Assembly (NCBI GenBank): GCA_949288785.1
Contig: CASELQ010000010.1
Coordinates: 1 to 64,000 of the forward strand
Source of the DNA: an uncultured Eubacteriales bacterium
Lineage (GTDB): Bacteria; Bacillota; Clostridia; Christensenellales; Borkfalkiaceae
Direction of reading: 5' to 3'
Length of the DNA stretch: 64,000 bases
The position numbers were made by a program, and so were the translations under genes. Under the pieces are notes generated by a model, which worked only from the letters and a program-made list of their open reading frames with translations, did no database searches and was not told the origin of the DNA. Below are positions 5,812 to 50,188 of this stretch, piece after piece (within the stretch, counting starts at the first letter, position 1; each line of letters opens with the position of its first letter).

Positions 5812-6600
5812 TCAGTATCTGCCGTATTTATGCGCGGCGTTATACATTGCCACAACGTTTACTACGGGCGTGTTGTCCTGTATCTGATGGGTGGGCGCAA
5901 AATGATAGCCCCTTACTTTCATCATTATTTCAAGCGTATCCCTGCACACCTTTTCGGTTTCCTCCGCGCTGCCGTAAGCAAGTGCGCCCGCCGTGGATAT
6001 GCACCCCCTGAAATTCAGCCTTCCGCCGAACTTTTCCGCAAGATATGCCGGGCTCATATTCTTTGCTTCGGGTTGGAGAGTATCCACCCCGCGCATCCCC
6101 ATCTCTATAAAATCTTCGTAAGCCCAGCTGCTGCTCCCGCAGGTATGTATCATTGCGGGAAGTCCGTAAGCCGACGCAAGATCTACAAACCGTTTATGTA
6201 TGGGCTTTATGTGCTTACGGTACATTTCAAGGCTTATCATGGGGGCAATCTGCGTTCCCAGATCCTCCCCCAGCCACACGAAGTCCAGATACTTTCCGCA
6301 AGCGTCCAGCAGCCGCTCCATATGCTTTAACTGAAAGTCCGCGCGGCGGCGCATGAACGCCAAAGCCGCCTCGTCCTCCATGGCAAGGTGGATAAGCACA
6401 TCCTCAGTTCCCATAATTCTGCCGTTGGAATTTATCACGTCCGGCGTGCCCGGCCCGCCGATATACAGCGCCATATCCTTGCCGTAACTTTCGGCTAAAT
6501 CCCTTGCGGAAGTATAGTCGAAATCATCCGCGTCCGGCACGGGGAAATTATAAAACATCTCGTCGGTTGCGTCCTTCAACGGAAAGTCGCAATAGTCCCA
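5812..6600 (-). pseudogene. uroporphyrinogen decarboxylase-family protein, N-terminus missing
   Basis: The frame encodes about 260 residues of the C-terminal two thirds of a URO-D-like protein: DFPLKDATDEM, YPWP-like FPVPDADD, GGPGTPD, VWLGEDLGTQ, HTCGSSSW and a final HQIQDNTPVVNVV. The first 90-110 residues of the family (start and first barrel strands) are absent. The frame runs directly back into a TAA at 6601 that ends the rhamnosidase-like fragment, in the same frame, so the two genes are joined by a deletion. A TTG at 6579 is the only plausible start and has no convincing ribosome binding site. Probably not functional, unless the junction is an assembly error. Confidence 0.7.
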
Positions 6601-7368
6601 TTAAGAGCCAGTTTCGTGCTCCACAAACCGCATAATACAACCTTCGAGCGGATCCGCCTTTTTGCCGGGCGGCGAATCGGGCTCGAACACCTCCCACCAG
6701 GTGGTGGCGCCCCGCCTTAACATCTCGCCCCAAAACTTATCCGTCCACTCCCGCGCCAGGGCTTTATACCCGTTTTCAAGCATATAGTCAAGGCACAAAC
6801 ACATCAGGAACGCGCCCCGCACCTTAACGCCCGAAAACCCTTCGGAAGTAACCTTGTAAAGAACCTTTTCGGGCTCCTCCGCCACGCCCGTTATAACGGC
6901 GTACATACTTGCCTGCTGCGAAAAACTTCGGCTGCGAATGCCGTCCGCAACGCAATCGCAATACAGACCGCTGGCAGAATCATACATAATGCGGTTTATA
7001 TTTTCCTTTAACCTTTCCGCCTTGGCGCGGTAAAAGCCGCCCTCTTTTCCCGCGCGCTCCAATATATCGGCATAGCGGCAAAGCGCCTGAAAGTAAAGGC
7101 AGTTGAGCGCGGTAACCTTGCCCCGCCTGTCGGTATCCGCCCAGTCTATAAAGCACCACCACTCCTCTTCTTTGCCCGAAATATCAATGAGCCCGTCCGC
7201 CGCCTCGTTCTTTTCAAACCACGCAAAAAGCCTTGATAAGGCGGACATTATCTCCCCGTCGCAGACCTTGCCGGAATATCTGAAATACTCCTCCGCCATC
7301 ATCACGAAATGCGTGCAAAAATCAGGCATCACCCTGCCTGCCGGCATGGGACCTAACGGCAGAATCAC
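6601..7368 (-). pseudogene. alpha-L-rhamnosidase-like protein, catalytic-domain fragment
   Basis: This frame holds the later part of a GH78-like six-hairpin catalytic domain: MPDFCTHFVMMAEEYFRYSG, EEWWCFIDWADTDRRGKVTA, SQQASMYAVITGV and GATTWWEVFEPD, the last two being hallmark regions of the fold. After PGKKADPLEG the expected C-terminal region is missing and the reading runs into URO-D-like sequence. At its N-terminal side the first hairpins, with the general-acid region, are missing. The pieces at 7322-8319 are the upstream part of the same gene in other frames. Not expected to be active. Confidence 0.75.
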
Positions 7369-7987
7369 TCCCTCCGCCGTTCGCGCTTATTTTAAGGTAC
7401 CGAAACGCCCGGCGGCAAAAGGGCGAAAGGGTCTGTTCTTCGCCGTTTAAAATAAAGGTATCCGTCCGCAACAGTTCCAGGCTCTCTCCGTACCAAAACG
7501 AAATACTGCTCCCGCGTTCACCCTTTACCACCGCTTCGGGATAACCCGTTATCTCCCTTGTAAAGTCATATATCACGGCGGGAAACGACCCCGGCGTTTG
7601 TGTATGCAGCGCCGCGGCGCCGCCCGAAAACACCTCTGCCCTGCCGAGATTGCCTATGGTTTCCAGCACCTCCGGCACCACGCGCTCAATCGTTTCGGGA
7701 GAGGGCAAACAATACCGCTCGGGCTCTCCGAACTTCGTGTTTGCGAGCACACATATATGAGGACGCTCCCAATTCCCGTCGTCATATCCGGGAAGTTTCC
7801 AGCCGCCGTCATATAACCTCGTATCGTATATCTCTTTAAAGCCGCCCCATGCGCTTATGCGGCTTGCCATGGGGTCCGCGTCGGTATCCCCGCGGATAAA
7901 GTGCGGAGAAAGCCGGCACCTGAAATCTTCTCCGCAAAAGTTCTTTTCCCCCGCCTCCACGCATATGTTGAGCGCGGCGGGTCCCAT
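7322..7987 (-). pseudogene. alpha-L-rhamnosidase-like protein, middle fragment
   Basis: About 200 residues of the beta-sandwich part of the same rhamnosidase-like gene: ISAWGGFKEIYDTRLYDGGW, PGYDDGNWERPHICV, VIYDFTREITGYPEA, SISFWYGESLE and CRRAFRYLKIS. These follow the order seen in GH78 proteins just before the catalytic barrel. The match then stops abruptly near 7390, and the next recognisable segment, in another frame, is roughly 100-150 residues further on in a normal protein. The upstream joint near 7985 looks like a loss of one base. Confidence 0.7.
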
Positions 7988-8289
7988 ATTCTACCCGGTT
8001 CGCAGGGAATGTTTTTACCCTCGCAATACACTTCCGCCGCTATACAAAAACGCCCTTCGCCCGTACTTACGGTTATCTCGTCATAATACGGAAACCGGTA
8101 ACAGGAAGGAGCGGGACCGCGTTTTATAAACCTGCCGTTAAGGTACAAAGCGTATTCTCTGCACGCGTGGATGCATACGTGCAGAGCGCCGCCTTCAACG
8201 CTTTCGAACTCGCGGCGGAACTGAATAAGAAGATTGTTCTTTTTCTCCGTTCCCTCTGGGCAAACCCACCCCTTTTCCAACTTTTTCAT
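7855..8289 (-). pseudogene. alpha-L-rhamnosidase-like protein, N-terminal fragment
   Basis: The start of the rhamnosidase-like gene. The ATG at 8289 follows AAGGAG at six bases. The protein begins MKKLEKGWVCP and has a carbohydrate-binding-like sandwich: IHACREYALYLNGRFIKRGP, YRFPYYDEITV and CIAAEVYCEGKN, as in the first domain of GH78-type enzymes. No signal peptide, so the intact enzyme would have been cytoplasmic. The meaningful sequence stops near 7990, where the reading frame moves by one. It lies 50 bases after the second Wzz-like gene and may be the last gene of that operon. Confidence 0.7.
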
Positions 8290-8338
8290 GCGCCGCTCCT
8301 TGTTTAGCGCCTCTCGCAAAACATTTGCGGGAGCGGGT

Positions 8339-29684: not shown

Positions 29685-30200
29685 TTACGCGACAACAAGT
29701 TCATTCCCCTGAACGGTAAAGGTCGTGCCCCAAAACGTAACCTCGGTTATCGCGCCGGTATCGTCCGTGGTTACTTCCGCGTCCAACGTGTATCCAAGCA
29801 ACCACACGTTTTCTTCTATCGGTTTTATATAGTCGTCCCTGTATATCTCGGCGTAGCGCCTGCCGTCCTCCTGCGGCTCGGTTATCTTTACAAGCAGAAC
29901 GAGGTCCATATTCAGCAAAAACACGTTGTTTTCCGCATTCGGCTCGGAGGGCGTTTCGCCCGAGGGCTGCCACGAACAGAGCGTTATATCTTTGTCCGAC
30001 CTGTCTATAAAGTAATAGTTATCGGGAGAATCTCCGCCCATATGCAGCAATATTATATCGGTTTTATCGGTTAGTTCATAGGTGTATACAATCGGCTCCG
30101 ACCATTCTATAACGGTAACGGTGCGTTCGGTCTCGTTTAAAATGGCTTTTACCTCTACAAAAGTTTCGGCATGGCTGGTAAAGAGGCAGCGCTCCCCCCC
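29685..30200 (-). pseudogene. surface protein, C-terminal fragment (third repeat)
   Basis: The last part of the repeat-containing surface protein, in frame only if the G tract at 30194-30202 has seven or ten G instead of nine. The frame runs from the G tract (RCLFTSHAETFVEV) to a stop at 29685 and forms a third copy of the approximately 125-residue repeat: YELTDKTDIILLHMGG, NYYFIDRSDKDITL, SWQPSGETPSEPNAENNVFL and FTVQGNELVVA at the end. An internal ATG at 30050 could start it alone but has no good ribosome binding site. No sortase motif, dockerin or SLH domain follows. Confidence 0.7.
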
Positions 30201-31950
30201 CCGTTTTCCAGTTCGAGAACAATGCTGTTACCCTGCACGGTAAAGTTCATACCCATAAAGTTCACGCTCGCAAAGGCGCCGTTCTCGCCCGTCTCCACGG
30301 TCGCGGCAACGGTAGCAAACGGAATATAGCCTTCCTCGCCGAGTTCAGGCATTTTACGGTATATTACCGCATAATATCCGCCGTTTATATCGTCATAAAT
30401 AAAGGCAACCAGCGCGGCCTCCCCGCTTAAGTCCGCCGAATATATATGTTTGGATGCTTCCGCCGCCTGCGGGAAGCCCATACTTTCGTTCCACTCCGCA
30501 GTAGAAACCCAGGGCATTATAAGAAGCGCGTTCGGGAAAGTCCTGTCAATATAGGCGTAGAGCGCGGGAATATCCGTTCCGGGTGAAAAAAGAGTTATCA
30601 CGTTGTTGTTGTAGCCGCTCAGATATTCAAAGGAATACTCCGCCGTTCCGCTGTCGGTATACACTACGAGCATGCGGTTTTCCTCATCCAGATACCCCAC
30701 CGCATCTATCGCGCCTATCGGTATATACGTAACGGTGCATAAAACGAAGTTATCCGGAGCGGCGGGAATAAGCGCCGTGCCGCGCACGATAAATTCCATT
30801 CCGAAAGCGCTGCCGCCCGTTATCTTGCCCTCTCCGTCAAAAGTAACGGTTGCGTCCAGCGTGTAGGCGAGGACATATTCCGAACCGTCATACTCATACA
30901 TTTCGGCATAGCCTATGCCGTCTTCCCCTATGTTCACAAGCCTTATAAGAGTGTCCGAACCGCCGCCCAAATTCAGCAAAAACACGTTGTTTTCCGCATT
31001 CGGCTCGGAGGGCGTTTCGCCCGAGGGCTGCCAGGGGTAAAGCGAAAGCGTCTCCCCGCTCCTGTCTATGCAATAGTAGTTGAGAGGATATCCGTCTCCC
31101 ATATTCAGCAATATTATATCGGTTTTATCGGTTGTTTTATAGGTAAACACGCGTTTTTCGCCGTAAGGCGTGGTAATCGTTATATAGTGCCCCACTTCGT
31201 CTATAAGGGCGTCGGACTGCGTAAGCCCCATCACGACGTTGGTAAACAGGCAGGTTTCGCCGCCCGGAAGTATAGTTACGGTAAAGGTATATACCGTGCC
31301 GTTATACGTTACGGTAAAGGTCTGGTCGCCCACCGTATTGAAGTTCACGCCCGAAAAATCTATCATCTCCGCCGTAAGATACAAAGACGCCTCGTCTTCC
31401 CACATGCTGATATTTTCTATCTCGATTACTTTACTGAGCGTCGCCTGCTTTTCCGCTGCGGCAATTTTCGCCTCTTCCTCGGTAACGCCGGCGTTCAGAA
31501 CGAGCGAACCGCCCGAAAAGCTGCCCCTGTAAGACACGTTTTCGTCTGTGAAGATCCACGCATTGATATTTTCCTGCCAACCTTGGTTGAACGTGCTCTT
31601 TACGGTGATCTTATAGTCGCCTATATCGCACGAAAAAACGTCGAAAATATTCTCCCCGCTCTCGTCGTAAACCTCGTTCACGCTCTCGTAATAAACAACG
31701 TAATATCCGGATATTTCAAGGTCATGCCTTATATACCACCCGCTCAACCCGCTTTGTTCCGAACGGTTAAAATATATCGTCGTATAGCCGCTGTTGTACC
31801 CGTCTTCCGTGAAGTATACGAATTGAGAATTGTTTCTGCCGAAATCTCCGTTTGCAAAAGTCGTTTCGGGCATCAGCACCGCTTTGCTTCCCGTTTCATA
31901 TCCTTCGTAAGTAATGGTGAAAACAACGTCCGTCGGCTCCGATCTCTTTT
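30155..31950 (-). pseudogene. surface protein, middle fragment (two repeats)
   Basis: Continuation of the surface protein after a one-base shift near 31950. It opens with TDVVFTITYEGYETGSKAVL, then a region of beta strands, and two copies of the repeat: the first has KTTDKTDIILLNMGDGYPLN and YPWQPSGETPSEPNAENNVF, the second is more diverged (SGYNNNVITLFSPGTDIPAL, MPWVSTAEWNESM). The frame is broken off by the nine-G tract, after which it reads only 12 more residues and stops at 30155. No separate ribosome binding site or signal peptide precedes it. Confidence 0.7.
30194..30202 (-). repeat. homopolymeric G9 tract inside a coding region
   Basis: Nine consecutive C on the plus strand, that is nine G on the coding strand, in the second surface-protein fragment (codons around ELENGGGS). 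With nine G the protein ends 12 residues later; with seven or ten the frame joins the next repeat. This is the kind of tract at which strand slippage switches genes on and off. Confidence 0.85.
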
Positions 31951-33398
31951 ATCTGCGCTTGGTCATAAGAAATCATATCCTCCGTAAGAGGAACGTAAGA
32001 GGTTGTATTGTTGTTACGGTAAACGTTCAGCATAAACCCGTCTATATGCATAGTGAGTTCGTCGTTTTCGTCCACGGTTACGATAAAAGTATTGCAGCTT
32101 ATACCGTTTACCGTGGTATCGTCAGGATCTATAAGCCGCAGATACGCATCCGCGCCCGAACCTTTGTATTCTATATGCAGGTTATATTCGCCCGCCGCGG
32201 CGGAAGAGATGTCAAAGGGCTCGTTAGTATTCATATCGGTTACGGTAGCCCCCGCCTCTATCATAGCGGAAAGGGTGGTGTCCTCATAGCCGCCTACGTT
32301 ATATTCGATTGAAACTATGGGATCCTCGCCGAGGTAGGTTTCTTTAATGTATATGGAAATTATCTCCCTGTCCGCGGGGTCTACTATCGTTACCGTAAAC
32401 TGTTTTGTAAACCCTTCGTACTCGGCGGTAAAGGTATAAGTACCCGCCGCGTCCCAATTCACGCTGCCCGCCGTTATATTCTTAAGGTCGCGCGGGCTGA
32501 TGTAATCGTAATTCCAGTCGCTGTAACGAACGATAACTTTGGTATTATCAACGTCGCTCAGCAATATTTCGGAAGGAAGTTCTATATCAATTATTTCCGC
32601 AAGCCCCTCGTACGCGGCGGTAAAGCTGATATCTTCGTATATACCGCCGGTATAAGTAAACGTGCTTTCGCCGTAACCGTAACTGTTGCCGTACTGGTCG
32701 AGCCAATAATTAAAAAGATGCCCGTCTTTTTCTGCGGGGGCGGTTACGGTAATCGCCTCGTTAGCGTTATAAAGCCCGTAAGTAAACCCGTCCGAAAGGG
32801 TGCCGCCGTTCACCTTTACGTTAACATATTCTCCGTCCGCCGGCCTTTCGATATTATAGTTATAATAACGCTGAGCGGCGCTGCCGTAATTAAGCATGGA
32901 ATAAAGCAGGTCTTGCAGCATATGATCTTCCGTGCCGCCGTTCCTCATATTATAGGCATATTGCAGAATACTGTACTTAAAAGGCGCGCTGTAAACGGGC
33001 GTGCCGTTATCGTCGTAATATGCGCATACGTAAACGTCGTCCGTCATCTGTTTTGCGGCAAGTTCGGTAAAGCAGAATACAGGATAAGTTACCCCGTTTA
33101 TCTCCTGATGGTTATATACGTTCAACGTATAATCGGGGGCGCTCTCCGCAGTGTATTCCGCGGGTACGCTATCCCATACCAGCAGTTTTATAGAAGAGGT
33201 ATCCTCTATATTTTCACTGCCCGCCGCGTAAAGTATGTACACGTTGTCCTCGAACTTTAAGTTGGCATAATGTATGTTGAGCGACTTTGCCCCGCCTTCT
33301 TCCGGCTGTGCCGCAATTGCAGAAACGCCGAACGCAAAACACAGCGCGCACATAACGCTCAATACGGCTGCCGCCGCTAACTTTAACCCTCTTTTCAT
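31896..33398 (-). CDS. secreted repeat-containing surface protein, N-terminal fragment
   Basis: A 500-residue frame that starts with a clear signal peptide (MKRGLKLAAAAVLSVMCALC, cleavage near AIAA). Behind it are a helical module with YSILQYAYNMRNGG and YSMLNYGSAAQRYYNY, a motif common in clostridial surface proteins, an InlB B-like stretch (VKVNGGTLSDGFTYGLYN to FNYWLDQYGNSY), and bacterial Ig-like domains (VNWDAAGTYTFTAEYEGFTK and similar). The frame ends in non-family sequence from about 31950, where a one-base shift leads into the next fragment. The full gene would encode about 1,235 residues. The ribosome binding site AAAGGAG is eight bases before the ATG. Confidence 0.8.
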   Translation of the reverse strand: MKRGLKLAAAAVLSVMCALCFAFGVSAIAAQPEEGGAKSLNIHYANLKFEDNVYILYAAGSENIEDTSSIKLLVWDSVPAEYTAESAPDYTLNVYNHQEINGVTYPVFCFTELAAKQMTDDVYVCAYYDDNGTPVYSAPFKYSILQYAYNMRNGGTEDHMLQDLLYSMLNYGSAAQRYYNYNIERPADGEYVNVKVNGGTLSDGFTYGLYNANEAITVTAPAEKDGHLFNYWLDQYGNSYGYGESTFTYTGGIYEDISFTAAYEGLAEIIDIELPSEILLSDVDNTKVIVRYSDWNYDYISPRDLKNITAGSVNWDAAGTYTFTAEYEGFTKQFTVTIVDPADREIISIYIKETYLGEDPIVSIEYNVGGYEDTTLSAMIEAGATVTDMNTNEPFDISSAAAGEYNLHIEYKGSGADAYLRLIDPDDTTVNGISCNTFIVTVDENDELTMHIDGFMLNVYRNNNTTSYVPLTEDMISYDQAQIKEIGADGRCFHHYLRRI

Positions 33399-33440: not shown

Positions 33441-33581
33441 TCAGCCTCCCGTTACGCCCGTAACGTCATCCCACTCGCCCTGATTGTCGCTGTCTCCGGT
33501 GCCGCCGGCGCCAGAAGAAAGCAACGGCTCATCCGCCGAAAAGGTAAAAAAATCCGCCTTTTCGTATGCGCGTTTTCTCAT
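33441..33581 (-). CDS. 46-residue acidic small protein before the surface-protein gene
   Basis: A short frame with a strong ribosome binding site (GGGGAGGG, six bases from ATG). The N-terminus is basic (MRKRAYEKADF), the rest acidic and rich in Gly and Ser, ending DDVTGVTGG. No cysteine and no hydrophobic segment. It stops 43 bases before the surface-protein start on the same strand and is probably co-transcribed with it. I do not know its function; similar short basic-to-acidic peptides occur before surface proteins in other Clostridia, as far as I recall. It is not obviously a RiPP precursor, as no maturase is near. Confidence 0.6.
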   Translation of the reverse strand: MRKRAYEKADFFTFSADEPLLSSGAGGTGDSDNQGEWDDVTGVTGG

Positions 33582-33657: not shown

Positions 33658-33845
33658 CATTGCTTCATTTAATTTTATTATACTGCGCACAAAATACGCC
33701 GTCAAGCGAAAATTTAAATTTTTTGCGTATTTTAAGCCTGTTTTACACTTTTTTTACATAAACTGCCGCCGCGCAAGTTGCACGGCGGCGGGAAATTAAG
33801 GCGCGGCGCGCCGATTTTCAGTTATTAAACCGATACGTTGCGCCG

Positions 33846-50146: not shown

Positions 50147-50188
50147 CTTGTGGGGGGGCGCGGGTTGGGGGGGCCCACCAAGTTTTTT
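50147..50188 (+). terminator. fba terminator with a very G-rich loop
   Basis: Stem CTTGTGGG / CCCACCAAG (one mismatch) followed by six T, 30 bases after the fba stop. The loop side has G tracts of seven, three and seven (50152-50158, 50162-50164, 50167-50173), able to form a G-quadruplex in the RNA. Confidence 0.65.

Follow-up and report, generated by a model that had tools for sequence, protein, structure and literature searches.

A broken surface-protein gene with a nine-guanine tract, and candidate G-tract promoter switches, in an order of uncultured Clostridia

Most known cases of phase variation driven by slippage come from host-adapted Gram-negative pathogens, and the route described in gut Clostridia is DNA inversion. 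Promoters of the Neisseria porA, opc and fetA type carry a homopolymer in the spacer between their -35 and -10 elements, where slippage alters the promoter spacing, and the targets are surface proteins. In Helicobacter canadensis, poly-G tracts near the 3' ends of genes give rise to C-terminal phase variation (PMC2823697), and in Bifidobacterium a G-tract switch of sortase-dependent pili has been described for which slippage was measured directly by deep sequencing (PMC9187656). The portion of a 2025 review of phase variation that was considered here places Clostridia only under DNA inversion (PMC11868660), and searches of the open-access journal literature brought up no description of such promoters, with a G tract, in Clostridia.

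In this study, we followed up a sequence-only reading of the window, by which we mean the whole 64,000-nucleotide stretch of DNA analysed, and compared it with relatives from an order of uncultured Clostridia, possibly Christensenellales of the GTDB, with one genome per species; the assembly of the window's own genome comprises 54 contigs and is 90% complete. The interpretation that we favor, and to which we assign a probability of roughly 70%, is that a previously undescribed form of surface switching extends across the order. G9-G10 tracts located in promoter spacers upstream of genes for lipoproteins, further exported proteins and transporters would act as slippage switches, the commonest tract length would leave the spacer 1-2 bases off a 17-bp optimum, with low expression as the default and a single slip separating it from the on state, and intragenic tracts, that of the window included, would add on/off and C-terminal variation.

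Tract promoters were sought with the pattern TTGAC-N(1-12)-G7-N(1-12)-TATAAT, the reversed pattern serving as the control. The window's own genome has four tracts between TTGAC and TATAAT, that is, in -35/-10 spacers, and their targets are two ABC-transporter ATPase genes (one preceded by the promoter TTGACTttcgcacG9tgcTATAAT), one putative exported protein and one AraC-type regulator, the last with a poly-C tract. The two ATPase promoters of this genome (G000), with G9 at C5:18072-18102 (L023) and G10 at C5:28208-28239 (L024), are only 10 kb apart, and a further promoter tract is located at C15:7930-7960. Eight tract-promoter places were present in 6 of the 44 genomes of the genus. Of 396 genomes sampled evenly from the order, 70 had tract promoters, with a concentration in four families, and the reversed controls gave none in either set. 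An even sample of the rest of the phylum yielded 11 of 397 genomes with one match each, which is near chance (control 3). Poly-C spacers were rejected as an equal class, with one place against two control places in the genus. Eleven scattered tract promoters were located on viral contigs. In tract-rich genomes, contigs L132, L133 and L135 (G079) and L126 and L130 (G149) end no more than about 200 bases from a tract promoter, which suggests that multi-copy or variable promoter regions break the assembly there.

Among the matches listed there were 138 distinct promoters, with G9 in 87 and G10 in 28. The position of the tract in the spacer ranges from abutting the -35 to abutting the -10 element, which is unlike a fixed protein-binding site. 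Tract-free promoters for comparison were taken from 702 kb of DNA from seven related genomes, made up of stretches picked around tract promoters, a choice that biases the number of tracts, not their length or the spacer. Within the range of 15-19 bp, a 17-bp spacer was found in 5 of 101 tract promoters versus 34 of 51 tract-free promoters of the same DNA (Fisher p = 4e-16). The spacers of the tract promoters straddle 17 bp, and the dip at that length stays when either hexamer is relaxed and recurs in three families taken separately (0/39, 1/43 and 4/49). The genes downstream differ as well, as a signal-peptide-like N-terminus followed 33 of 41 tract promoters versus 12 of 45 tract-free ones (p = 5e-7) and a lipobox followed 22 of 41 versus 3 of 45, both called by our own simple rules rather than by a trained predictor. 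The simplest account of these patterns would be promoter phase variation by slippage, in which slippage of one base in a spacer would change the distance between -35 and -10 and, with it, expression, and in which the assembled state would usually miss the optimum by 1-2 bases. The dip itself is statistically strong, and it would then represent a "mostly off" state; for the latter we draw on what is generally known about promoter spacing and on the tract-free promoters found in these genomes. As a quantitative signature, the avoidance of 17 bp predicts that most cells express these genes at a low level and that a slip of 1-2 bases raises expression.

Nine is a preferred tract length rather than the far end of a random distribution, as the counts of G/C runs demonstrate: runs of 6, 7, 8, 9 and 10 number 99, 6, 9, 51 and 2, respectively, in the 702 kb, and tracts of 8, 9, 10, 11 and 12 number 3, 8, 2, 1 and 1 in the window's own genome. 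Loss of mismatch repair was ruled out as a cause in the latter, as MutL is present, and slippage rates may therefore be moderate; MutL was also found in 46 of the 61 genomes searched. Direct evidence of a change in length was found only in a repeat of genome G224, whose three copies in identical flanks (L158:15473, 15810 and 16021) carry G9, G8 and G7. Tract lengths were equal in eight of nine same-flank groups within the DNA compared, so fast switching is unsupported; we infer that lengths vary within populations. Tracts were also encountered within genes. In a related genus, a G8 tract in the lipoprotein gene at L125:4298 (G149) shifts the remainder of the gene out of frame, as in the window, while several long frames in related genera, some of them exported (L153:11346, with a signal-peptide-like start, L157:270 and L150:19457), contain an in-frame G9, so tracts in coding sequence do not necessarily act as switches. 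A lipoprotein gene of G000 (C17:17885-18043, L010:3386-3544) carries a G11 immediately ahead of its promoter, and a G9 directly behind the lipobox cysteine is in frame. Two G7 runs, 8 bases apart, lie between convergent genes of the window at 50152-50173 on the plus strand.

The surface gene of the window is spread over three minus-strand frames (Table 1). That these belong to one secreted protein with a signal peptide, as had been proposed, was confirmed by the frame positions and by an intact ortholog from a congeneric sister species (G024, contig CALVWQ010000012.1). The ortholog is syntenic, flanked by clpB and a PLP-dependent synthase gene, and has 868 codons in one frame with a single C-terminal repeat, lacking both the tract and repeat 3. 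The gene was detected in 2 of 81 relatives, own genome counted, plus one marginal match, and no convincing ortholog was found in the other relatives searched. The N-terminal module of frame A is also found in further secreted proteins encoded by genomes from gut metagenomes. The Ig-like domains attributed to the protein correspond to matches to Big_3 (PF07523) that are present but weak, their scores of 21.0 and 18.5 bits (E = 4e-4 and 2e-3) both falling just below the Pfam cut-off of 21.2. A PDB sequence search with the ortholog gave no match and an NCBIfam search no useful match. The 46-residue ORF upstream shares 46% identity with its G024 homolog (E = 9.6e-5), was not detected in the other 79 relatives searched and may encode a small peptide that is exported or acts in signalling. 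No G or C tract was found in the surface gene's own promoter spacer (TTGACGGCGTATTTTGTGCGCAGTATAAT at 33677-33705), and G024 likewise has a TTGACG/TATAAT-type promoter at the same place. Phase variation of the window gene via its own promoter was thus ruled out, the 17-bp spacer being tract-free.

Table 1. Features of the surface-gene locus, in window coordinates
Feature	Position	Strand	Remarks
Promoter of the operon, TTGACG-N17-TATAAT	33677..33705	-	17-bp spacer without G tract
46-aa ORF with motif DNQGEWD, upstream of the surface gene	33441..33581	-	Syntenic homolog in G024
Frame A	31896..33398	-	500 aa; N-terminal signal peptide, N-terminal module, weak Ig-like (Big_3) region
Break 1, frame A to frame B	31927..31936	-	At GACGGACG; net frame change +1
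Frame B	30155..31936	-	Rest of Ig-like region, repeats 1 and 2, short out-of-frame tail past the G tract
Repeat 1 (R1)	30761..31273	-	~170 residues; equivalent of the only repeat of the G024 ortholog
78-nt shared copy in repeat 1	30967..31044	-	Pair of 29906..29983
Repeat 2 (R2), diverged	30203..30760	-	24-29% identity to R1 or R3
G9 tract (C9 on the plus strand), break 2	30194..30202	-	Joint of repeats 2 and 3; exact junction of frames B and C
Frame C	29685..30194, open from 30221	-	Repeat 3, natural stop; coding-like
Repeat 3 (R3)	29688..30194	-	48% identical to R1
78-nt shared copy in repeat 3	29906..29983	-	92% identical to the copy in repeat 1

The sequence-only reading had counted three copies of a repeat of about 125 residues; the three copies stand, and the unit is in fact approximately 170 residues long. 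As the G024 ortholog has one repeat, the window gene has gained two, and the tract lies at the joint of the second and third. A model of the repeat built from four sequences was confidently predicted to be all-beta (pLDDT 90.5). Foldseek returned no convincing match to this model among solved structures, and the best VIA-align hit (Z 5.2 to NlpE over 66 residues) was below the level that the tool regards as meaningful. The stretch of more than 50 identical bases reported to be shared by two repeats exists, in the form of a 78-nt block of 92% identity. Elsewhere, the DNA of repeats 1 and 3 is ~42-77% identical, and the block accordingly looks like a recent local conversion or recombination patch, in keeping with the suggestion that the shared stretch could recombine. 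Frame C is free of stops over 169 codons, the other two frames of the same DNA having 15 and 4 stops, and repeats 1 and 3 differ with dN 0.47 and dS 1.15, with third codon positions the least conserved. Judged from these substitution patterns, repeat 3 was translated after the duplication and was under past coding constraint, and the break at the tract is younger than the duplication.

The placement of one break exactly at the G9 run was borne out. Since no TTGAC or TATAAT occurs around 30194-30202 on either strand, the tract was dismissed as part of an intragenic promoter. The other break had been put near 31950 at an AAAA; both position and sequence were wrong, as it lies at GACGGACG, and the remark that no long tract is found there was correct. 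The G024 ortholog has a single open frame across this position. Break 1 is upstream of the G9 tract, so slippage at the tract alone could not restore the assembled copy. A different tract length does join frames B and C, as had been pointed out, but the protein would still be cut by break 1. The surface gene, out of frame at its tract and broken upstream, is inactive as assembled.

It is improbable that the gene is a fully working phase-variable one, with switching at both sites and with break 1 as a tandem duplication that is either reversible or polymorphic among strains. The sequence GACGGACG, which is not a homopolymer, consists of a 4-base unit in two copies, in favor of this reading; however, it is expected ~1.5 times per window by chance, so that tandem duplication as the origin of break 1 is only a suggestion, and a 4-base unit in two copies slips rarely. 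Even less probable is an error of assembly or sequencing at one or both breaks. The genome is incomplete, as its contig number and completeness indicate, and G tracts are prone to sequencing errors (PMC9187656), but break 1 is outside any homopolymer and clpB, lon, uvrC and other long conserved or housekeeping genes of the window are unbroken, which makes sequencing or random assembly error unlikely. The lowest probability falls to programmed or transcriptional slippage, by which some ribosomes or transcripts would reach repeat 3 from unchanged DNA. A nine-base homopolymer ahead of an open, coding-like frame is what this would call for, but break 1 has no such sequence and the ortholog has neither the tract nor repeat 3.

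A plain pseudogene is a possible explanation to be taken more seriously, albeit one to which we give under even odds. Ordinary frameshifts would have inactivated the gene, and the G9 would be a mutational hot spot that shifted after selection was lost. The two independent breaks, one of them outside any tract, are consistent with this, as is the restriction of the gene to two of the relatives, own genome counted and one marginal match aside. A GH78 alpha-L-rhamnosidase gene nearby (~6601-8319, minus strand) is split over two frames by at least two breaks, none of them at a G tract, so decaying genes occur in the window's genome; of the earlier suggestion that part of the surface-gene pattern might be decay or sequencing error, the former is backed by this gene and the latter made unlikely by the intact housekeeping genes. 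The next ORF after the GH78 gene (5812-6579) is of the URO-D type and matches only the C-terminal half of that domain, so that the stretch as a whole is a decaying one. Against a plain pseudogene are the still open, coding-like repeat 3 and a tract that has the preferred length of the lineage and is situated in an exported gene.

For the window gene we put at about even the chance that it was once a contingency gene, or is one in some strains only, and is undergoing decay in the assembled genome. Its proposal as a phase-variable candidate is favored by the tract length, the export of its product, the clear habit of the lineage of placing such tracts at genes for exported proteins, the G8 parallel in the lipoprotein gene, and the coding constraint on repeat 3; it is opposed by break 1, which cuts translation upstream, so that in the assembled genome the product is the same whatever the length of the tract. 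Under the contingency reading, the secreted product would combine a conserved N-terminal module with Ig-like domains and with three C-terminal beta repeats, versus one in the sister species. The length of the tract where repeats 2 and 3 meet would set where the protein ends, either after repeat 2 or with repeat 3, resulting in C-terminal variation, and the G9 tract may in this manner have switched the gene. The window tract would then be an intragenic relative of the G9-G10 tracts that occupy promoter spacers ahead of exported-protein genes across the order.

By itself, the window gene is of modest value, being one broken candidate. The promoters carry wider implications, as G-tract promoters of exported proteins in dozens of genera would, if they switch, add a new source of surface variation at the population level among gut commensals, with a bearing on their interactions with phages, the immune system and nutrients. 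The Neisseria loci are a close counterpart to the order's promoters, as in both a homopolymer in the spacer shifts, or would shift, the promoter spacing and the targets are surface proteins. Unlike those of Neisseria, the tracts of this order are almost only G on the non-template strand, have one preferred length (G9) and avoid the 17-bp spacing as assembled; the hosts are an order of uncultured Clostridia, and the window tract is intragenic rather than in a promoter. The invertible promoters of Clostridioides difficile are also a case of phase variation in Clostridia but operate by site-specific inversion, not by homopolymer slippage (reviewed in PMC11868660). In Helicobacter canadensis, as in the window gene, a G tract late in the frame alters the C-terminus rather than expression, although the tracts of that species comprise at least ten G and show length variation among reads (PMC2823697), whereas that of the window is a G9 seen in the assembly only and accompanied by a second break upstream. 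Finally, while the Bifidobacterium switch concerns actinobacterial pilus genes and the window gene encodes an unrelated secreted repeat protein known from assembled sequence, both are cases of an intragenic G tract in a surface-structure gene of a gut commensal (PMC9187656).
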